From contig JASJDV010000006.1 in NCBI GenBank assembly GCA_030064985.1, forward strand, positions 1 through 35,257: DNA of 35,257 nt. The letters are read 5' to 3'. The stretch comes from Simkaniaceae bacterium. GTDB taxonomy: Bacteria > Chlamydiota > Chlamydiia > Chlamydiales > Simkaniaceae. Made by a program: the position numbers and the translations under genes. The notes under the pieces are model-generated. The model searched no databases. It saw only the letters and a program-made list of their open reading frames with translations, and was not told the DNA's origin. Shown one piece after another: positions 25,071 to 35,257 of this stretch (the stretch's first letter is position 1; the number at the start of each line of letters is the position of its first letter).

Positions 25071-25601
25071 ATGAATATAAAATATCAAGGGATTACATAT
25101 CCCTTTGTTGTCATTATTGTTCTTGATAGGGGAGAGGTTATGGTGTATGAAAATCCAGATTATTCCAAAGTAGGGCCTCATCACTCTAGAAACTTGCAGT
25201 GGATAAAATGTAACGATAGAGAGCGGGTTTTTGCTGTAGCTAATGTTCATGGCTTATGGAATGGAAAAGGAAAGGGTGATACTCCTGAGAGAATTTTTCA
25301 ATCGCGCAATATAAAAAAAACGATCAATAATTTACATATGCCTCACATACTTTGTGGAGACCTTAACCTAACGCTTCAAACAAGAAGCCTTCGAATTTTA
25401 GATTCAGATATGAGAAACTGTATCACTGAATATGGGGTAAGATCCACTAGAACGCGATACTATGAAAAAGAAGAAAAGTACGCAGATTATATGATCTTAT
25501 CCAAAGGAATTAAAATTAATAAATTTAAAGTTTTACCTGACGAAGTGTCGGATCACTCTCCATTGTTTTTAGATTTTGATTTAGAAGAAGAAAGTATCTA
25601 A
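25071..25601 (+). CDS. endonuclease/exonuclease/phosphatase-family protein, N-terminally truncated
   Basis: A 176-residue frame corresponding to the C-terminal two-thirds of an EEP (DNase I-like) domain. Visible family segments: VYENPDYSKVGPHHSRNLQW, the strand with ANVHGLWNGKGK, the metal/phosphate motif CGDLN (Asp and Asn), KYADYMILSKG, and the terminal SDHSPLFLDF with the catalytic SDH. The N-terminal portion that normally carries the first Asn and the metal-binding Glu (LQE) is absent; an in-frame TAG lies directly before the ATG at 25071 and there is no good ribosome-binding site. A catalytically complete enzyme is therefore unlikely, and the gene is probably a remnant. Its stop overlaps the convergent fusion gene by four bases. 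Confidence 0.6.
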   Translation: MNIKYQGITYPFVVIIVLDRGEVMVYENPDYSKVGPHHSRNLQWIKCNDRERVFAVANVHGLWNGKGKGDTPERIFQSRNIKKTINNLHMPHILCGDLNLTLQTRSLRILDSDMRNCITEYGVRSTRTRYYEKEEKYADYMILSKGIKINKFKVLPDEVSDHSPLFLDFDLEEESI

Positions 25602-26518
25602 GAGATTTGTTGCACCATTTGACTGTAAAAACACCTTATATCTACATTTACATCCATTTCTTGCAACATAATCCCTAACTGTTCTGGCAAGATATGATAG
25701 TTTGAGATAGCTGATAAAGGACACCAAACAAATTTAATAAATGGTTCAGAAGATTGAGGAGGTGCATTTAAAGATAGATTTGGAATACTTACAAGGTAGA
25801 TTAGATTAATTTCATGATATAGACTCCCTTTCTTGTTCCAGCTACACTCTAGCGCGCCCATAAATTTTAGCTCTTTTGCTTGCAATCCCATCTCTTCCAA
25901 AATCTCTCTTTCTAGAGCTGAGGTTGCTGGCTCATTGTAGTCAACATGTCCGCCCGGAAGAAAATATAGATCCTTAGCAAATTCTTTGTTATGTTGAGTT
26001 GTTGTAGAAAGGAGAATATGATCGTTACAGGTTATGATGCCACGAACGATTAAATTAACTCCCTGATCAGAGTGAATTGTAGCAACTGTTTTAAGCTTTT
26101 CAATGGCTTTTTTATATTTAGTTGGTTCAAAAGATGTACTGATAAAAATGTCTAAACAGGATTTTGCCTGATCTATAGGTAGATTTTTACTTCCTAAGCA
26201 AAGGACGTTAGCATTTAATTTTTTACGAACAGCTTCTGCATCTTTTTTAGAACCGCATAATGCGGCACGGATGTAGTTATACTTATTTGCAGCCATTGTA
26301 ACGCCATGGCCATCATTACAAATCAAGAGGCCACAGATATTCGAGGAAGTAAGCTTGAGTGCCAGCTGTTTAGTAATATCTACGAAATCAAGTGGGGATC
26401 CTTCAAATATTCCAATGTCTTCTATACACAGATTTAGGCCAGTTGCATATTCTAAGAGTTTTTTTCTTAAACCAATACCCTTAAAATCACTTGCGAAAAT
26501 AATTTTGCTAAATTTCAT
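25598..26518 (-). CDS. RpiB/LacA-like domain fused to a Nudix hydrolase domain
   Basis: A 306-residue two-domain protein. Residues 1-142 match the RpiB/LacA/LacB sugar-phosphate isomerase fold: IIFASDFKGIGLRKKL, LDFVDITKQLALKL, the loop GLLICNDGHGVTMAANKY (C67 equals E. coli RpiB C66) and ANVLCLGSKNLP. The RpiB histidines are replaced: H10 by F12 and H99 by K100. Residues 143-306 are a Nudix domain with a perfect box GX5EX7REUXEEXGU at 190-212 (G190, E196, R204, E205, E208, E209, G211). Nudix enzymes cleave nucleoside diphosphate-X compounds. The combination suggests a hydrolase steered by a sugar-phosphate-binding domain; isomerase activity is doubtful. It follows the LRR gene on the same strand after two bases, with no clear ribosome-binding site, so coupling is likely. 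Confidence 0.88.
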   Translation of the reverse strand: MKFSKIIFASDFKGIGLRKKLLEYATGLNLCIEDIGIFEGSPLDFVDITKQLALKLTSSNICGLLICNDGHGVTMAANKYNYIRAALCGSKKDAEAVRKKLNANVLCLGSKNLPIDQAKSCLDIFISTSFEPTKYKKAIEKLKTVATIHSDQGVNLIVRGIITCNDHILLSTTTQHNKEFAKDLYFLPGGHVDYNEPATSALEREILEEMGLQAKELKFMGALECSWNKKGSLYHEINLIYLVSIPNLSLNAPPQSSEPFIKFVWCPLSAISNYHILPEQLGIMLQEMDVNVDIRCFYSQMVQQIS

Positions 26519-26520
26519 AG

Positions 26521-27486
26521 CTAATACTGTTTTACAAGTATTTCATTTTTTCTAAGGCAATTGAGAGATTTCTCTGTAATATTGGTTGAATTAAACAGAA
26601 TTATTTTTTTGAGGTTACTGCATAATTCTGAAAGTTTCATTAAAGAAATATCTGTTAAGTTTATGCAACCACTGAAGTCTGCTGATTGAAACTCTTTACA
26701 GTTTTGGGCAATCGCGATAAGGGTTTCATCATTAAGATAGGAATGCCAGGCAAAATCAACCTGCTCAATTTGAGGGCACCCTTTGATCAACATTTGAATT
26801 CCAGCATTAGTCAAATTATCTTGCCCGTTAATCGATTTGGGGCGGTAACATCCTCGCAAGTTCAGCTTCCTTAAGTTTTGGCAGTTACTAGCAATTACTT
26901 CAAGGACTTCATCTGTTACAGCGTCGCATCTTTTAAAATGAATAGATCTTAAGCTGGGGTGAGACCTGATGATCCTAATCATACCTTGACTAGATACTTT
27001 CTCACAACCACGGATATCAATATTTTCAAGCTGAGGAGCCATGTTTTCTATCGCCGAGGCTGTTACATCAGTTACGCTCTTACACCATTGTAAAGAGATT
27101 GAGAGTAAATGAGGGCAATTAGCTATGAGAGCTTCTAAACAGCGATCTGTAACATAGCAGCTTCTAAAACCCACTTTTCTTAACTCAGGACAATGTTTAG
27201 CAAGCGAGAAAATGGCTTGCTCAGAAATATCACACCAACTTAAGTCAATATCCTCAAGCCTTGGACAGCTTTCAGCAAGAAAAGAGATGGCTCTATCTGA
27301 AAGCGTCGTACATGATTTTAAATTGATTCTTCTCAACTGTGGGCAATTCTTTGCTAAACTTATTATTCCTTCATCCGTTATTTTATTGTAAGATTCTAAA
27401 TTTATCTCAAGATTTGGAAGAGTATTAAATAACCCCCTGAAAGCAGAGTTTTCTGAAAATAAACCATTTAAATATTGATTTGTCAC
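26521..27486 (-). CDS. leucine-rich repeat protein (cysteine-containing, AMN1/F-box type LRR)
   Basis: The whole 321-residue frame consists of about eleven LRR_CC repeats of roughly 26 residues: units such as NCPQLRRINLKSCTTLSDRAIS, SCPRLEDIDLSWCDISEQAIFSLAKH, NCQNLRKLNLRGC and IEQVDFAWHSYLNDETL. This repeat class is typical of eukaryotic SCF-type F-box proteins and is rare in bacteria outside host-associated lineages. No F-box, signal peptide or membrane segment is visible. A type III effector acting in host ubiquitin or signalling pathways is a reasonable guess, not shown by the sequence. The frame here opens at GTG 27486 without a ribosome-binding site. The same frame continues upstream through one TAG to an ATG at 27648 with a strong AAGGAG, so the gene probably once began there (see the leader entry). 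Confidence 0.82.
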   Translation of the reverse strand: MTNQYLNGLFSENSAFRGLFNTLPNLEINLESYNKITDEGIISLAKNCPQLRRINLKSCTTLSDRAISFLAESCPRLEDIDLSWCDISEQAIFSLAKHCPELRKVGFRSCYVTDRCLEALIANCPHLLSISLQWCKSVTDVTASAIENMAPQLENIDIRGCEKVSSQGMIRIIRSHPSLRSIHFKRCDAVTDEVLEVIASNCQNLRKLNLRGCYRPKSINGQDNLTNAGIQMLIKGCPQIEQVDFAWHSYLNDETLIAIAQNCKEFQSADFSGCINLTDISLMKLSELCSNLKKIILFNSTNITEKSLNCLRKNEILVKQY

Positions 27487-28165: not shown

Positions 28166-29458
28166 TCACGGTTGTGAGTTGATTTTTTCATCATCCAGCA
28201 ATAACTGCATAGGAACTTCATTGATGCAAAGTTTAGGCATAGTGGCTTCTATATACTTGTCTATTTTAGGGATTAGTTCTCTTGTTATACCTTCACTATC
28301 CGACAACAATGCCTGTTGCATGCTGTCTACTATTGCACTTTCGTGATTGCGAGCTCTCTTTATCAAAAAACACTGCCTATGACTTTGCATCCACATTGCA
28401 TGTTCAGTGTATAACCTCTCAGCTAATGTTTCCATGTAATTCACAGCTCCCGCGATTCCGTTTTGTCGAATTCTTCCTATTACGCTAGTTGGCTCAGATG
28501 AATTTATCTGAGTTTGGATTGCTTTGATCTGTATTTTTGCTTTTGCTATTTTATCCTGAACTTTACTCCTTATTTCGTGAATTGGAAAAATTGCTATCGC
28601 TAAGGGTTTAGAAGCTTTTGCTAAATCCTCTGCCGAGCAAACGAGTTTTGATAGGCAAGGTTCAATTTTATCAATAAAGAGAGTAGCACTTTCTTGAATC
28701 GCTCTATGCAAAGCAATGGTCTTATTCGCTTCTTTATTAACGATTTCAGCGCAGGTTTTTAGAAATTTTTCTGATGGATGAAGGGCATCATATCCTTCAT
28801 TTTCAATCAAATTTTTTAGTTGATTCAGCGACTCTGTTGAAGATTTTGCATGTGCTAAAATGTGTAACTTGCAACTTCTGTTGAAAGTTTCTTGCACTTC
28901 ATATAAGCCATTAGCCTCCTGATGTAGATCAATAAGAGTACTAAATATGTCAGAATTTTGATGCAAAAGTGCTGCTGTTCGCAATAAACTGATATTTGCG
29001 CGATAACTTCCTTGGAGGCTATCTACAAAATCACTTCCAAAGATTGTATTCATTTGCATTTGGGTCTGTTCGCGATAGGATCGTGTTTTAGGAGATGAAT
29101 CCGTAAGGGCTTGCAAAATACCAATACCTGTTTGGATATCTGATAATAAAGGTAACTGTTGGTTAAGTACCCGAATTTGACTGCGGAGCGAGGCAGTTTG
29201 TTCAGTGATAGTGCAGTCTATTTTGTAAAATTGCCCAGGCCCTCTTCTAATCGTAACAGTTTCAGGGGGTAAATGAGGAGCAGAATACAATTCATCTAAT
29301 TGCTCTACTTCTTTGTGACTTCTTGGGCTCAAGGCTTCCACGCCTAGTTCATGTACTAAAATATTTAATCTTTCAGCTCCTTGATCTGGAGAGAGAATGG
29401 GTCTGCCTAAATTAAAGGTAGCTGTGTTTCGTAAATCAAGATTCATTGGGTTGGTCAT
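28166..29458 (-). CDS. hypothetical, mostly helical protein of 430 residues
   Basis: I do not recognise a family. The start is good: GAGGA eight bases before ATG 29458. The N terminus (MTNPMNLDLRNTATFNLGRP) is polar and rich in Asn/Thr with no signal peptide, a composition often seen in type III secreted proteins. From about residue 75 the sequence is predicted by eye to be helical with heptad-like stretches (ASLRSQIRVLNQQLPLLSDI, NQLKNLIENEG, IRSKVQDKIAKAKIQIKAIQTQI). There are no membrane segments and no catalytic motifs. It has its own terminator and stands as a single transcription unit inside the accessory region, near the LRR gene and transposon remnants. A secreted effector or inclusion-associated protein is possible but unproven. 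Confidence 0.6.
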   Translation of the reverse strand: MTNPMNLDLRNTATFNLGRPILSPDQGAERLNILVHELGVEALSPRSHKEVEQLDELYSAPHLPPETVTIRRGPGQFYKIDCTITEQTASLRSQIRVLNQQLPLLSDIQTGIGILQALTDSSPKTRSYREQTQMQMNTIFGSDFVDSLQGSYRANISLLRTAALLHQNSDIFSTLIDLHQEANGLYEVQETFNRSCKLHILAHAKSSTESLNQLKNLIENEGYDALHPSEKFLKTCAEIVNKEANKTIALHRAIQESATLFIDKIEPCLSKLVCSAEDLAKASKPLAIAIFPIHEIRSKVQDKIAKAKIQIKAIQTQINSSEPTSVIGRIRQNGIAGAVNYMETLAERLYTEHAMWMQSHRQCFLIKRARNHESAIVDSMQQALLSDSEGITRELIPKIDKYIEATMPKLCINEVPMQLLLDDEKINSQP

Positions 29459-30457: not shown

Positions 30458-33400
30458 TTAGGTATCATCAGGAGTTTTAACAAGCTCAAGTCCTGCATCA
30501 AAATCTTCTGCGCTTGTTTGAGAGCGATAGATATCTTCTTGCCTGTCTGTGATCTCTTTATAAGTGTCGAAGGATTTGATGATATGGGGCCGCACAAAGA
30601 TCACGAGGTTAGAGACATTTTGATTCTTTTCGTTATCACTAAATGCTGCGCCGATGAGTGGAAGTCCTCCTAAGCAAGGGACTCCTGTGCGGTGATATGT
30701 TTTAGAATCTTGCATTGAACCACTGATGACAAGAAAGCTTTTATTAGGAACGCTTACCACAGTTTTTGTACTCGACTTATTGGTTGTAATCCCTTGGACT
30801 TGGACATTACTGACTGAGGATGTTGAGTTCAACTGATTTAATTGTTCAGAAATATCTTCCTCAATCATTAAGGTGATGACATCATTATTTCCCACCATAG
30901 GAGTAATGCTTAAACTCACCCCCACATCGCGGTATTCGAGGTTTGCTGTTGTTGTTGTCGTTTGGGATTGGTTGGTGACGAATGAGCCTGTGTAAGGAAT
31001 ATTTTGCCCCACAAAGATTGTCGACATTTTATTGTCTTGTGTGATGATTTTTTGATTCATCACAATCACAGAATCACCTTCATCCCTTAGGGCATTAATC
31101 AATGAACCAAGAGCAAAATAGGATTGCCCTTTGTGAAGGATGATATCGCCGATGATTCCAAGGTCACCACCAGCTGTAAAAGGGATGAAAGACCCTGTAG
31201 GTGTGTTCGAAGCTGTAATGTTTGCAAGATTTGATTGAAATGAACTAAGAGGATCAGTCACTCCACCAACGGTACCTGGGAAAACCCCTGTACCATAAGC
31301 AAACTTGTTTCGATACACGCCTTGTGATCCCCAACGCAAACCAAATTGCAGGTTATTGCTCAGTGTGGTTTCGATCACGAGGATTTCAACAAAGACCTGC
31401 TTAAGAGGAATATCAATGCTTTTGATAAGCTCTTTAAGTTTTCCTAAAGCATCTGCTTGCCCTGTTGCAATTAAGGAATTGGTGACTTCAATCCATTGCA
31501 GCGTATTGATCGCATCAACGAGATTGTGATTCACTTTGGTCTTAGATTTACCAAAATCAATGCCTATGAGTTTAATCGCATCTTGAATTTCAGATCCGCT
31601 GTGGTATTGCAACTTGTAAATAAGAAAGCTCATATCAGCAACGGTTTCGATTCCAGTTTCTCCTTCTGCACCTCCAGCAGTGGGAATATCAAAGCGCTCT
31701 AGTAAGCCGCAAACTTTGCTCGTATCCTCTTCATCGCCTGAGACAAGAATAGAGAAAGTTTTTTCCATCCATTTTAGGTTGTTGATCACATCGAAAAGCT
31801 TTTTATCAGCAACACCAGAAGTCACGAGATTTTGCTCGAAGTCTTTCAAGATATGAATTAAGTCCAGTCCTGAAACGTATTTAGGTTTGTAAATTTTATA
31901 TCCCGATGGGGTTCTTCTAGGAGCTTCCTTAGCAAGTCCAGGTATATCGAATTTTTGCGCTAAGGAAAGTGCTTCTTGAATAATTGTAGGAGTTCCGGTA
32001 AAGATGATAGAATTTGTGTCTTGAACATAACGCATGTTGTTCAAAGTTGTGATTAAATTATCTTGTGTAGACCCCGCCCGTTTTAAATCAGAGGCTAGGT
32101 TTCTCAAGTACCCCATGAGTGCGGGGCCAGAGAGATATTTGATCTTATAAATCTCAAAAGTTGTTTTTCCAACCTGTTTAACTTGGCCTTCAGATGGAGT
32201 GTCAAGAGAGGGAAGAAGTTCCTGAATTTTTGCAATGAAACCTTGCGTTCCTGTAAAAAGAACGGCTTGTCCTTTTGATACTAACTTAGTAGTTGTAAGG
32301 GTATTAATTAGACTCTTGTCTGCAAATCCCGAAGCTTCCATATCTTCTGCAACTATGCGAGCATGTCTTCTTAAATCATCTGCGGAAATATAGAGGGGTT
32401 TATAGATATAAAACTCATTCGCTTGAGGCGTTGATTCGACAGGAATATCGAAGGTTGGAACAATTTCCTTGACTCTATCCATTGCATCTTTTGTTCCTGT
32501 AAAGAGAACGCTTGTTCCTTTCGAAACAACAGATGCTGAGTTTAAAGATGCAATCAGGTTGGGGTCTTTAAGCCCTTTGTCTTTCATTTCAGCTGCAGCG
32601 TGGTTCGCTTGTTTAATAATTGTTTTGGGGCTTTGATACTCTGGTTTAAAAATATAGTACTCAGAAGCTTGAGATTCTTTTTCTTGATTATCCAGGGAAC
32701 GAACCATCACTTTAATTTTTTCAATCGCAGCAGCTGTTCCTGTAAAGGTGACGCGGTTTTTATCTTCTGTTAAGCGGGCAGAGTTCATTGCACTGATTAA
32801 ATCGTGATCTTGTAGACCAGAACGATCGAGTTGCTTTCCTGAACGTTTGATATTAGTAATCAATTTGTCGGCGCTTATGGACGCGGGTTTGTAAATATAA
32901 AATTCAGATTTTTTAGGGCTTTTGGGTGTATCAAAAGTTGAGATCATGCCTTTTAATTTTTCAATTCCCTTTGGGGTTCCTGTAAACATGACAGCAGTAT
33001 CATTTGAAACAAGAGACGCTGATTTTAAGGTATTGATGAGGGGTAGGTCTTCTAGCCCTGCCGCCACCATTTCCTTGGCAGCAGAAAGAACCTTATTTCT
33101 TAGATCCTTGGCACTTTCGCCGATGGGTTCGTAGACGTAAAATGCTGATGGTTGAGCTCCTTCAGGGGTGTCGTGGTGACTGATCATCACTTTAATCCGA
33201 TCAATGACATTAGAGAAACCTGTGATCACAAGAGAATTATTTGATGGAATCCATTTAATGTTATGGATTGAGTGAATCAATGCTTGATCTTTAGCGTCAG
33301 ATTGTTTGAGTGTCTTAGCTGTTTCCTCTAATTGTTTAAGAACAAGATTTCCTCGGACATTTTGAAGTGCGTAGACAAAATAGGTCAGCTTCGATGCGCC

Positions 33401-35254
33401 GGCGACTTCAGCATTGTCTATTGTCGGAAGAATGCCTTTGATTTGATCGATTGTGTTATTTGGTCCTCTAAAGACAAAAGAACTCGACTGAGAAACATAT
33501 CTCATATGATCAACGGTTTTAGTGAGATCGTGATCAAAAGGAAGGGACTTAGCAATCTTTTGCAGTCCTTTTTCGACAGTACCAGGATCGACAAATTGGA
33601 GGCGATAGATGTAAGTGGACATGAGATCTTTGCCATGATCTAACATTGAAATAAGTGCGCGAACTCTAGTGAGGGAGTCTGCGTCGCCTATAAAAGTGAT
33701 GGTCCCTTGGGATGGGGAGATTTTAGCCGAGCTTAATGCTTTTAAGAAAGCTGCGTCTGATAAGTGCGCGTTTTTTAAGCCTTTGTAAGTGTCTTGAATT
33801 TGTTTGAGTAGAGCTTCAGGTGGTTCATTTTTAGGTGTGTAGATGAAAAAATCATTACTCAATGGCATGTTTGATCCTTCATGTTCTGCAACATCAAAAA
33901 TAGGGAGAATCTCTTTAAGGCGATTTAAAGAGCGTTGATCGCCAGTAAACGTTAACGTATGACTGGGCTTATTGTATTTCATTGTACTGATGGTTTTGAT
34001 CAAGTCTTGAGAGTAAGAGAGCTTTTTTAGGTTTTGGACAAAGTTATCGAGTGATCGGGCAATGAGCTCTTCATTTCCGTTTTTAATTTGATAAATGTAA
34101 AAACCCCCATGAATAGACTCTAGCTCTTGTTCTGTAGTAGAAATATCCAAGCTATCCAGGATCCCTGCAGTCTCTGTCAAGGACTGAGCATCCCCTATAA
34201 ATAGAAGAGAATGACTTTGCTGGATATATTTCATACTATTTAAGGCTTGGACGAGATTTTGTGAGGAAGGACCTAGGTGAGAAAGATTTGTTCCGATATC
34301 TTTAATAGCAGATTCAAGTAGATGAGGAGGTTTGTTTTTGATATGATAAATTAGAATGTTGTCTGCAGAAAGGGGTCCCCTGATTCCTGTTGAAAATGGG
34401 GGAGGAGAGTCTAGGTCTTCTAAAATAGCTATTGATTTTTCAATAAGGAAGGGAGTGGTAACAATATAAATGCTATTTGTCGATGGTTGTGGGACGAAAA
34501 TGAGTGGGTTCCCTTCAGAAATTGGGAGTAAAATCTGATGCGCAAGAGAAACCAAGTTTTCGGGAGGATTGTTTACCGCAGTGTAAGAATCGATTTCTAA
34601 AGCAGCTCTGGGAATATCTATGCTGTAGAAAAGCTTATGAATCTCTTCGATATTTTGTGTAATATCTGTAATGATAATGTGCCTTGTCGATTCAGACACT
34701 TCAATCATTGCATTTGAAGAAAGAAATGGGCCGATGATACCTGCAAGAGTTGTTGGGTTAGCATTTTTGACTCGAAAAACCCGAGTCATGATAGGAGGAA
34801 TTGTTTTTCCTTCTAGAGGAACTTCAGGAGAAACGACCGTTGCGATTTGCCTGAGACCACTCTCTTTTGCGATCACAAGATTGTTTCCCTGTTCGATTAA
34901 ATCAAGGCCATTCAATCTTAAGATTTGAATGAAAGCAGCCATCACATGAACAAGCGCTGTGGGTTCTTCTGAGACAATTGTGACCCTAAAATTTAGATCT
35001 TCCTCGTTATAAACAAAATTGACGTTTCCGATCTTACCAATGAACTTTATGAGTTCTAAAATAGGAACGTTGTCAAAGTTTATTGTATAGCCTTCGCCAG
35101 TTTCTTTAGGAATTAAGCTAGCGTCGGGAGACGTTTTTTCTTCGAGGAATTTTTCACTTTTTGGAGCTGTATGGAGGAGGGATGAAGAAATACATAAGAG
35201 TGTAAGAAGAAAGATGCTTATAGATTTTCTACTTTTCATCGTGTATTTTATCAT
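30458..35254 (-). CDS. gspD: giant outer-membrane secretin (GspD-like) with twelve extra N1/N2-like modules
   Basis: A 1598-residue secretin, more than twice the usual 650-750. Residues 9-30 are a signal peptide. N0 (about 55-130: YTINFDNVPILELIKFIGKI) is followed by N1 (about 160-225) and N2 (about 226-285). Twelve repeated modules of 70-80 residues follow (about 300-1292). The secretin pore domain is 1293-1565: VFVEILVIETTLSNNLQFGL, DNKMSTIFVGQNIPYTG, YRDVGVSLSITPMV, VPNKSFLVISGSM, VPCLGGLPLIGAAF and NLVIFVRPHII. A short acidic tail ends it. Secretins form 12-16-fold rings that let substrates cross the outer membrane. GspD of type II secretion is favoured by the N0-N1-N2 order and end motif; a type III SctC is the alternative. 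ATG 35254 is used; ATG 35239 is equally possible because the leader lies at the window edge. Confidence 0.9.
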   Translation of the reverse strand: MIKYTMKSRKSISIFLLTLLCISSSLLHTAPKSEKFLEEKTSPDASLIPKETGEGYTINFDNVPILELIKFIGKIGNVNFVYNEEDLNFRVTIVSEEPTALVHVMAAFIQILRLNGLDLIEQGNNLVIAKESGLRQIATVVSPEVPLEGKTIPPIMTRVFRVKNANPTTLAGIIGPFLSSNAMIEVSESTRHIIITDITQNIEEIHKLFYSIDIPRAALEIDSYTAVNNPPENLVSLAHQILLPISEGNPLIFVPQPSTNSIYIVTTPFLIEKSIAILEDLDSPPPFSTGIRGPLSADNILIYHIKNKPPHLLESAIKDIGTNLSHLGPSSQNLVQALNSMKYIQQSHSLLFIGDAQSLTETAGILDSLDISTTEQELESIHGGFYIYQIKNGNEELIARSLDNFVQNLKKLSYSQDLIKTISTMKYNKPSHTLTFTGDQRSLNRLKEILPIFDVAEHEGSNMPLSNDFFIYTPKNEPPEALLKQIQDTYKGLKNAHLSDAAFLKALSSAKISPSQGTITFIGDADSLTRVRALISMLDHGKDLMSTYIYRLQFVDPGTVEKGLQKIAKSLPFDHDLTKTVDHMRYVSQSSSFVFRGPNNTIDQIKGILPTIDNAEVAGASKLTYFVYALQNVRGNLVLKQLEETAKTLKQSDAKDQALIHSIHNIKWIPSNNSLVITGFSNVIDRIKVMISHHDTPEGAQPSAFYVYEPIGESAKDLRNKVLSAAKEMVAAGLEDLPLINTLKSASLVSNDTAVMFTGTPKGIEKLKGMISTFDTPKSPKKSEFYIYKPASISADKLITNIKRSGKQLDRSGLQDHDLISAMNSARLTEDKNRVTFTGTAAAIEKIKVMVRSLDNQEKESQASEYYIFKPEYQSPKTIIKQANHAAAEMKDKGLKDPNLIASLNSASVVSKGTSVLFTGTKDAMDRVKEIVPTFDIPVESTPQANEFYIYKPLYISADDLRRHARIVAEDMEASGFADKSLINTLTTTKLVSKGQAVLFTGTQGFIAKIQELLPSLDTPSEGQVKQVGKTTFEIYKIKYLSGPALMGYLRNLASDLKRAGSTQDNLITTLNNMRYVQDTNSIIFTGTPTIIQEALSLAQKFDIPGLAKEAPRRTPSGYKIYKPKYVSGLDLIHILKDFEQNLVTSGVADKKLFDVINNLKWMEKTFSILVSGDEEDTSKVCGLLERFDIPTAGGAEGETGIETVADMSFLIYKLQYHSGSEIQDAIKLIGIDFGKSKTKVNHNLVDAINTLQWIEVTNSLIATGQADALGKLKELIKSIDIPLKQVFVEILVIETTLSNNLQFGLRWGSQGVYRNKFAYGTGVFPGTVGGVTDPLSSFQSNLANITASNTPTGSFIPFTAGGDLGIIGDIILHKGQSYFALGSLINALRDEGDSVIVMNQKIITQDNKMSTIFVGQNIPYTGSFVTNQSQTTTTTANLEYRDVGVSLSITPMVGNNDVITLMIEEDISEQLNQLNSTSSVSNVQVQGITTNKSSTKTVVSVPNKSFLVISGSMQDSKTYHRTGVPCLGGLPLIGAAFSDNEKNQNVSNLVIFVRPHIIKSFDTYKEITDRQEDIYRSQTSAEDFDAGLELVKTPDDT
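31379..34357 (-). repeat. twelve tandem protein-coding modules in the secretin gene
   Basis: Each module has the pattern F-Y-I-Y-x-x-K/P at its first strand, a long helix (LxxxAxxLxxxGLxDxxLI), a second strand, FTGT or FxGD at the third strand, then IxxIKxxLxxFDxP. Starts fall near residues 300, 384, 468, 547, 633, 713, 793, 874, 956, 1042, 1128 and 1218. Modules 6 to 9 resemble each other most (SASLVS, SASVVS and TKLVS before FTGT). This is the beta-alpha-beta-beta-alpha plan of secretin N1/N2 domains with a lengthened first helix. The repeats are diverged at DNA level, so they are not a recent expansion overall. Confidence 0.85.
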
Positions 35255-35257
35255 TGT

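Follow-up and report, generated by a model that had tools for sequence, protein, structure and literature searches.

A type III secretin with multiplied N3-type domains in Simkaniaceae and two further chlamydial families

A trans-envelope machine has to be matched to the depth it crosses. In known systems the N0-N1-N2 base of the secretin docks on the inner-membrane ring, and SctP/YscP proteins act as needle rulers. The type II secretins GspD/PulD consist of N0-N3 and a pore, and PulD reaches about 20 nm into the periplasm (excerpts of PMC6882859). PilQ of Thermus thermophilus, a type IV pilus protein, bridges most of a wide periplasm with a 350 A stack of six rings (N0-N5), a ring number called unusual in the excerpts of PMC5745081. 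Chlamydial SctC derives from a type II secretin that was recruited to the type III secretion system (T3SS; PMC3459982). The C. trachomatis protein, CdsC, has 921 aa and the order N0-N1-N2-N3-secretin; the basal body measures 34 nm, and 29-31 nm upon host contact, with participation of the secretin (excerpts of PMC4682100). The C. trachomatis periplasm is 28.6 nm deep at the T3SS pole versus 13.8 nm at the opposite side (excerpts of PMC4336559).

The window analysed here, a stretch of DNA of 35,257 nucleotides, holds on its minus strand (30458-35257) a 1598-codon frame free of internal stops, which gives 1598 aa counted from the first ATG and which we assign to CdsC (SctC), homologous to the C. 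trachomatis protein by tree and locus. The order N0-N1-N2-N3-secretin is kept, and N2 is separated from N3 by eleven extra modules of the N3 type. Module borders were set by a recurring pattern, giving 14 modules of 66-90 aa each between N0 and the pore, and the features are as follows.

30458..35254, minus strand: cdsC/sctC, assigned as type III secretin, 1598 aa, N0 + 14 N modules + pore (frame, Pfam, tree, locus)
35165..35254, minus strand: signal-peptide-like start, residues 2-31 (sequence read by eye)
34868..35092, minus strand: N0 domain, residues 56-130 (Pfam PF21305 at 59-127)
34595..34792, minus strand: M1 = N1 (recurring pattern; Secretin_N 2e-8)
34364..34594, minus strand: M2 = N2 (recurring pattern; Secretin_N search)
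34112..34363, minus strand: M3, extra N3-type module (no individual Pfam match; N3 profile 48.1 bits)
33857..34111, minus strand: M4, extra N3-type module (recurring pattern; N3 profile)
33620..33856, minus strand: M5, extra N3-type module (recurring pattern; N3 profile)
33386..33619, minus strand: M6, extra N3-type module (recurring pattern; N3 profile)
33146..33385, minus strand: M7, extra N3-type module (recurring pattern; N3 profile)
32906..33145, minus strand: M8, extra N3-type module (weak Pfam match, 0.18; N3 profile 29.6 bits)
32663..32905, minus strand: M9, extra N3-type module (recurring pattern; N3 profile)
32417..32662, minus strand: M10, extra N3-type module (two copies in G093 and G037)
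32165..32416, minus strand: M11, extra N3-type module (recurring pattern; N3 profile)
31904..32164, minus strand: M12, extra N3-type module (recurring pattern; N3 profile)
31634..31903, minus strand: M13, extra N3-type module (recurring pattern; N3 profile)
31403..31633, minus strand: M14 = canonical N3, adjoining the pore (47-93% identical in 41 aligned relatives)
30461..31402, minus strand: secretin (pore) region and C-terminus (PF00263 at residues 1389-1561)

In the full protein, Pfam placed N0 at residues 59-127 (PF21305), Secretin_N on 12 stretches (E 1.1e-57, each stretch counted up to E 10) and Secretin (PF00263) at residues 1389-1561. A search of each module, cut singly, against Secretin_N, the check suggested with the original prediction, succeeded for 12 of the 14 modules at E<0.03, including 9 of the 11 extra modules, while M8 matched weakly (0.18) and M3 had no match at E<=1; both M3 and M8 match the chlamydial N3 profile described below (48.1 and 29.6 bits, respectively). 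The predicted distinct architecture, a secretin with about fifteen N-type domains, is thereby confirmed as N0, fourteen Secretin_N-type modules and a pore. Its figure of about twelve extra modules was exact for the number between N2 and the pore, one of which is the ordinary N3, so that eleven are extra.

Since contig G000:C50 of the window's genome (G000) stops at position 35257, the secretin gene touches the contig end, which speaks for an assembly or annotation artefact in which several genes were fused into one frame. In the single-contig genome G037 (CP073763.1), the homologous frame opens one codon ahead of the matching MIKY.MKSRK, and therefore little of the N-terminus can be missing. 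Relatives that are 64-65% identical and 1615-1617 aa long were found whole in three complete or near-complete genomes (G023, G025 and G027, the last a single contig, CP073762.1), and all modules are under purifying selection, with dN/dS values against the nearest relative, G093, of 0.03-0.28 across the 14 modules. Against these observations the probability of a fused frame is negligible, and the assembly join of several genes, named with the original prediction as the finding that would overturn it, is ruled out. A tandem artefact at the DNA level is ruled out as well, because the modules are diverged (9-41% pairwise identity); the gene contains no array, just short diverged direct repeats. 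The multi-module secretin is thus a real, conserved and evolving feature.

The type of secretion system was judged from a tree and from gene order. In a tree of M14 plus the secretin domain (93 rows; a quick search under LG+G4, with SH-aLRT and no bootstrap, and with long-branch warnings), one clade (SH-aLRT 99) unites 41 multi-module CdsCs with 12 short secretins, and outside it fall 30 three-module CdsCs and 10 GspDs, the GspDs being one side of a branch (SH-aLRT 98). Two proteins, L070 and L090, were first taken as possible CdsCs and relabelled GspD for want of a module match, and the branch of L090 is very long. Gene names were transferred from family f3, which we take to be the Chlamydiaceae, by phmmer and gene order. 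Upstream of the long secretin and in the same orientation, pkn5 is found 4 to 6917 bases away in 27 of the 42 multi-module loci; in 25 of these 27, cdsQ is also upstream, and further upstream follow cdsO, cdsN and others where the sequence stretch reaches. Among the 15 loci without pkn5, 13 have less than 4 kb of upstream sequence, and in G022 and G058 no pkn5 was found in 8.5 and 10.4 kb upstream of cdsC, so the locus is split there. In the window's genome, which also encodes FHIPEP (SctV/FlhA), some 655 bases lie between the end of pkn5 and a contig end, and the start of the secretin falls at the end of another contig, a join that is not seen in the assembly. As tree and locus place the 1598-aa protein with chlamydial CdsC, we identify it from its sequence as SctC/CdsC, the chlamydial T3SS secretin, which would form the outer-membrane ring of the injectisome.

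The alternative that the protein is the type II secretin GspD draws on the NCBIfam model TIGR02517 (GspD), whose cut-off of 351.35 the window protein exceeds with 376.6. The same model passes both multi-module CdsCs tested (376.6, and 370.7 for the 1767-aa CdsC of G036, which is presumably Simkania negevensis and carries 16 modules) and fails on both three-module CdsCs tested (309.1, 315.4), on the short secretin (222.4) and on three GspDs of this family (154.4 for a cut gene, 153.2 and 167.7); among the proteins tested it thus passes solely multi-module CdsCs and none of the GspDs. The window's genome holds three secretins, namely the 1598-aa CdsC, a GspD with an 803-residue frame and a short secretin of 561 aa, and it is the GspD that adjoins a gspE-like ATPase (best model TIGR02533, 576.9 bits, gene cut at the locus end), while no gsp genes were found beside the long secretin in G037 or G036. 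The long protein shares with GspD/PulD the N0-N3 and pore plan, and matches solved GspD structures in sequence, but differs in clade, in locus and from the four N domains of the latter. Grouped with CdsC by tree and locus, outside the GspD clade and away from gsp genes, it is very improbably a GspD, and we reject that identity. The model of the YscC-type SctC, TIGR02516, gives the window protein 90.5 bits, under its curated 238.45, and is likewise failed by two three-module CdsCs (88.9, 91.4). Because the TIGR02517 cut-off is passed, automatic annotation will misname multi-module CdsCs as GspD, an automatic family model calling this type III secretin type II.

The extra modules had been described as of the N1/N2 type. 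We compared them with N0, N1, N2 and N3 profiles, which were seeded with the domains of the window protein and then rebuilt on 30 three-module CdsCs belonging to other families. In 42 proteins (a set that includes G120 and G083, whose frames are cut), each of the 355 extra modules scored best with N3, at median bits of 52.4 for N3, 7.2 for N1, 1.4 for N2 and 0 for N0. An N1/N2 origin is therefore rejected, and by these profile scores the extra modules are copies of the pore-adjacent N3 domain. When 72 extra modules of seven genomes were combined into a profile, it matched solved GspD structures (best whole-sequence E 1.2e-10), with single stretches being weak (best 0.016) and unrelated chains appearing from E 0.0026 on; we take three successive stretches of its alignments on GspD as N1, N2 and N3. 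The pooled module alignment has only three nearly invariant columns.

A scan of the phylum found a secretin in 114 of 116 genomes; the only two without a match at E<=0.001, G028 and G044 of family f2, are 98-99% complete. Multiplied modules were seen in three of 13 families examined, f1 (the GTDB family Simkaniaceae, 19 tree rows), f8 (17) and f5 (5), where 7-16 modules were detected by the profile, or 8-16 when missed N1 domains are added; the profile missed N1 in G099, G081, G064, G094 and G073, and Pfam shows N1 in G081. Thirty proteins of the ten other families (f2, f3, f4, f6, f7, f10, f11, f13, f14 and f15) carry N1-N3 only, so that the architecture, which according to the original prediction could be tied to the chlamydial envelope, belongs to part of the phylum. 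The survey covered these 13 families, to the exclusion of f9, f12, f16, f17, several f5 and f8 genomes and G123, in which no whole cdsC was found, and its listing gives proteins from overlapping loci more than once. In secretins of the multi-module clade, ring-type domains are three to four times as numerous as usual. Three-module chlamydial CdsCs mostly have a long stretch before N0, which starts at residue 57-992 in the 30 proteins (between 100 and 310 in 26 of them), whereas in f1, f5 and f8 proteins whose frames are uncut at the start it begins at residue 24-129, and about 5-13 extra N3 copies follow; no protein in the sample combines extra modules with more than 129 residues before N0. 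A full-text search of the open-access literature returned no report of multiplied N domains in this chlamydial clade. Two other arrangements were noted among three-module families: in two f4 genomes (G016 and G060; L072 and L073) two CdsC-type genes lie about 4 kb apart, and the CdsC of G079 (f14; L042:6788-12001, minus strand) has at least 990 residues before N0 in a frame that is open at the contig end.

Whole N3 units are gained and lost in the middle of the protein, and base and top are more conserved. In the genus of the window's genome, module counts in 10 of 11 genomes with a whole cdsC are 10 (two genomes), 13 (one), 14 (five, the window's included) and 15 (two), and the tree requires at least 4 changes of module number among the ten genus rows, 10 among the 19 f1 rows and 21 among all 41. 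There are no half modules, since protein length tracks module number (78 aa per module, r 0.97) and the unmatched gap between modules never exceeds 31 aa in the 42 proteins; their spacing is regular, with a median period of 81-87 aa. Relative to the window protein, that of G093 has a single in-frame insertion of 82 aa, a second copy of M10, and that of G072 has one 80-aa unit fewer. The second M10 copy is common to G093 and G037, where modules 10 and 11 are alike at 63 and 73%, respectively, and module 10 of G093 is 88% alike to module 10 of G037. More recent duplicates, 78-86% alike, occur in f8 (G083, G096 and G099). In a module-by-module alignment, for which the gap cost is arbitrary, species mostly resemble one another more closely in M1, M2, M13 and M14 than in the middle modules, and f5 keeps only M14 and, less so, M2. 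The inner-membrane ring does not change with module number, as the CdsD (SctD) frames of eight f1/f8 genomes with uncut CdsD are 573-598 aa long at module numbers of 9-16.

We consider it probable that this CdsC has a periplasmic column lengthened by stacked rings of tandem-duplicated N3. In the ancestor of the clade (f1, f5 and f8 as sampled), the pore-adjacent N3 would have been duplicated in tandem, leaving a row of copies bounded on one side by the conserved N0-N1-N2 base and on the other by a conserved top made up of the pore and the last two modules. With every module gained, the barrel that surrounds the needle in the periplasm would most likely grow by one ring, so that the length of the secretin, and hence the gap spanned by the injectisome, would shift in whole-ring steps. 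That each module forms a ring, that the rings stack straight and that the basal body is longer are inferences; PilQ would be the parallel, with extra N rings lengthening the periplasmic part, although it belongs to type IV pili and has six N rings as against fifteen N domains in the window CdsC. Extrapolating from PilQ (35 nm for six rings) and PulD, we estimate that a straight fifteen-ring stack might measure roughly 50-70 nm, far more than the 28.6 nm of the C. trachomatis T3SS pole, which counts against stacking; at that length either a locally deep periplasm would be needed or the modules are not straight rings. A literature search on tomography of Simkania gave no measurement for the multi-module clade. 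Also counting against stacked rings are the short SctP-like ruler candidate of the window's genome (374 aa for 14 modules) and the cdsC genes of G022 and G058, which lack the expected T3SS neighbours. A broader and more tentative proposal, to which we give about one chance in three, is a length-tunable injectisome whose secretin, a column of up to some seventeen N rings (N0 and sixteen more), would through repeated N3 duplication be two to three times as long in residues as ordinary T3SS secretins and would vary in whole-ring steps, with SctP co-adjusted in Simkaniaceae and the inner-membrane ring fixed.

Among other readings of the extra modules, the one with most in its favour, still unlikely in our judgement, holds that the N3 copies are arranged like beads on a string, as a flexible or folded sleeve or an elastic tether that gives the injectisome a long compressible stroke. 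The shortening on host contact of the basal body in C. trachomatis (29-31 nm, otherwise 34 nm), with the secretin involved (excerpts of PMC4682100), and the shift of PilQ rings relative to one another in the excerpted source would suit such a sleeve, as would the strong divergence of the middle modules and a straight stack that seems too long for a normal periplasm, but the N3 type is kept in all 355 extra modules and the spacing is regular throughout the 42 proteins. The fast divergence of the middle modules is also compatible with modules that serve not as length but as a surface binding or filtering partners or substrates in the periplasm, and N domains do bind partners elsewhere (GspC HR on N0; excerpts of PMC6882859); variation in whole, regularly spaced units argues against this idea, and we hold it improbable.

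The same low probability applies to an envelope that is deep everywhere in the clade and that the secretin merely follows, as PilQ rings match the wide Thermus periplasm (excerpts of PMC5745081). The original prediction had raised such a deep periplasm, and it is disfavoured because the GspDs of the same or related genomes are not extended: that of the window's genome (721 of 803 residues present) has two Secretin_N matches, and the whole GspDs of G036 (803 aa) and G037 (787 aa) have one and two. Module number moreover spans 10 to 15 inside one genus, and in C. trachomatis depth varies locally, 28.6 nm versus 13.8 nm (excerpts of PMC4336559). The close relatives with 10, 13, 14 or 15 modules provide a natural series in which secretin length becomes measurable against basal-body length, periplasm depth and needle length.

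An ORF at the cdsP position resembles SctP/YscP rulers in having a variable part of low complexity and a conserved C-terminal end; two such ORFs searched against Pfam and one searched against NCBIfam gave no match. Across 27 genomes, the length of this ORF or of its homologue follows module number (r 0.79 on raw values; with contrasts, r 0.54 and p 0.003 at a slope of 30 aa per module), a post hoc correlation in that the pattern was noticed before the test. Contrasts gave r 0.57 (p 0.018) for the 17 f1 genomes, r 0.71 (p 0.002) for the 16 that remain when the window's genome is removed and r 0.09 for eight f8 genomes, with a slope of about 24-32 aa per module in Simkaniaceae. The control gene pkn5 correlates too, both in 20 genomes (r 0.67, p 0.001, slope 4 aa) and in ten f1 genomes (r 0.83, p 0.003, above the cdsP value), while cdsQ gave r 0.40 (p 0.08). 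The main outlier is the window's genome, with an ORF of 374 aa at 14 modules. Since pkn5 correlates and the window's own ORF contradicts the trend, the scaling of the needle-ruler candidate with module number is suggestive only, a lead. The candidate of the window's genome (L184:1495-2619, minus strand) is without about 200 low-complexity middle residues of its G037 counterpart (L176:1498-3252, minus strand, 584 aa).

ORF lengths in this comparison were stop-to-stop frames for f1 and ATG/GTG/TTG-to-stop for f8 and f5, and one N1 was added to the module counts of G099, G081 and G064. The set comprises 8 of 17 f8 and 2 of 5 f5 tree rows and excludes G120 (14 modules and a 531-aa frame, with the cdsC frame cut), G122 (unclear cdsP), G076 and G074 (no cdsP match), G090, G116, G118, G119, G123 and G125 (cdsC cut or not seen whole) and G034 and G048 (genes divided between two stretches). 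The cdsP homologue lies away from cdsC in some genomes, e.g., G023, G022 and G121.

The short secretin of the window's genome (G000:C30; L002:1312-2997, minus strand) and its relatives (L126-L135), found in f1 and f8, consist of N0, one N3-type module and the pore. The 12 examined nest within the multi-module CdsC clade, and the short secretin therefore looks like a CdsC copy that lost the other modules; in both G000 and G037 the neighbouring next gene encodes an MFS transporter. In G027, the T3SS ATPase cdsN stands at the end of a 2078-codon open frame (L146:1-6234, plus strand), the first ~1600 residues of which match no Pfam family at E<=0.1. The minus strand of the window near the secretin also encodes an adjoining 430-aa protein with no family match above cut-off (28166-29458), a leucine-rich-repeat protein weakly like, and far below cut-off for, the LRR of a plant-pathogen effector family (26521-27486), and a fusion of a ribose-5-phosphate isomerase B-like part with a Nudix domain (25598-26518).
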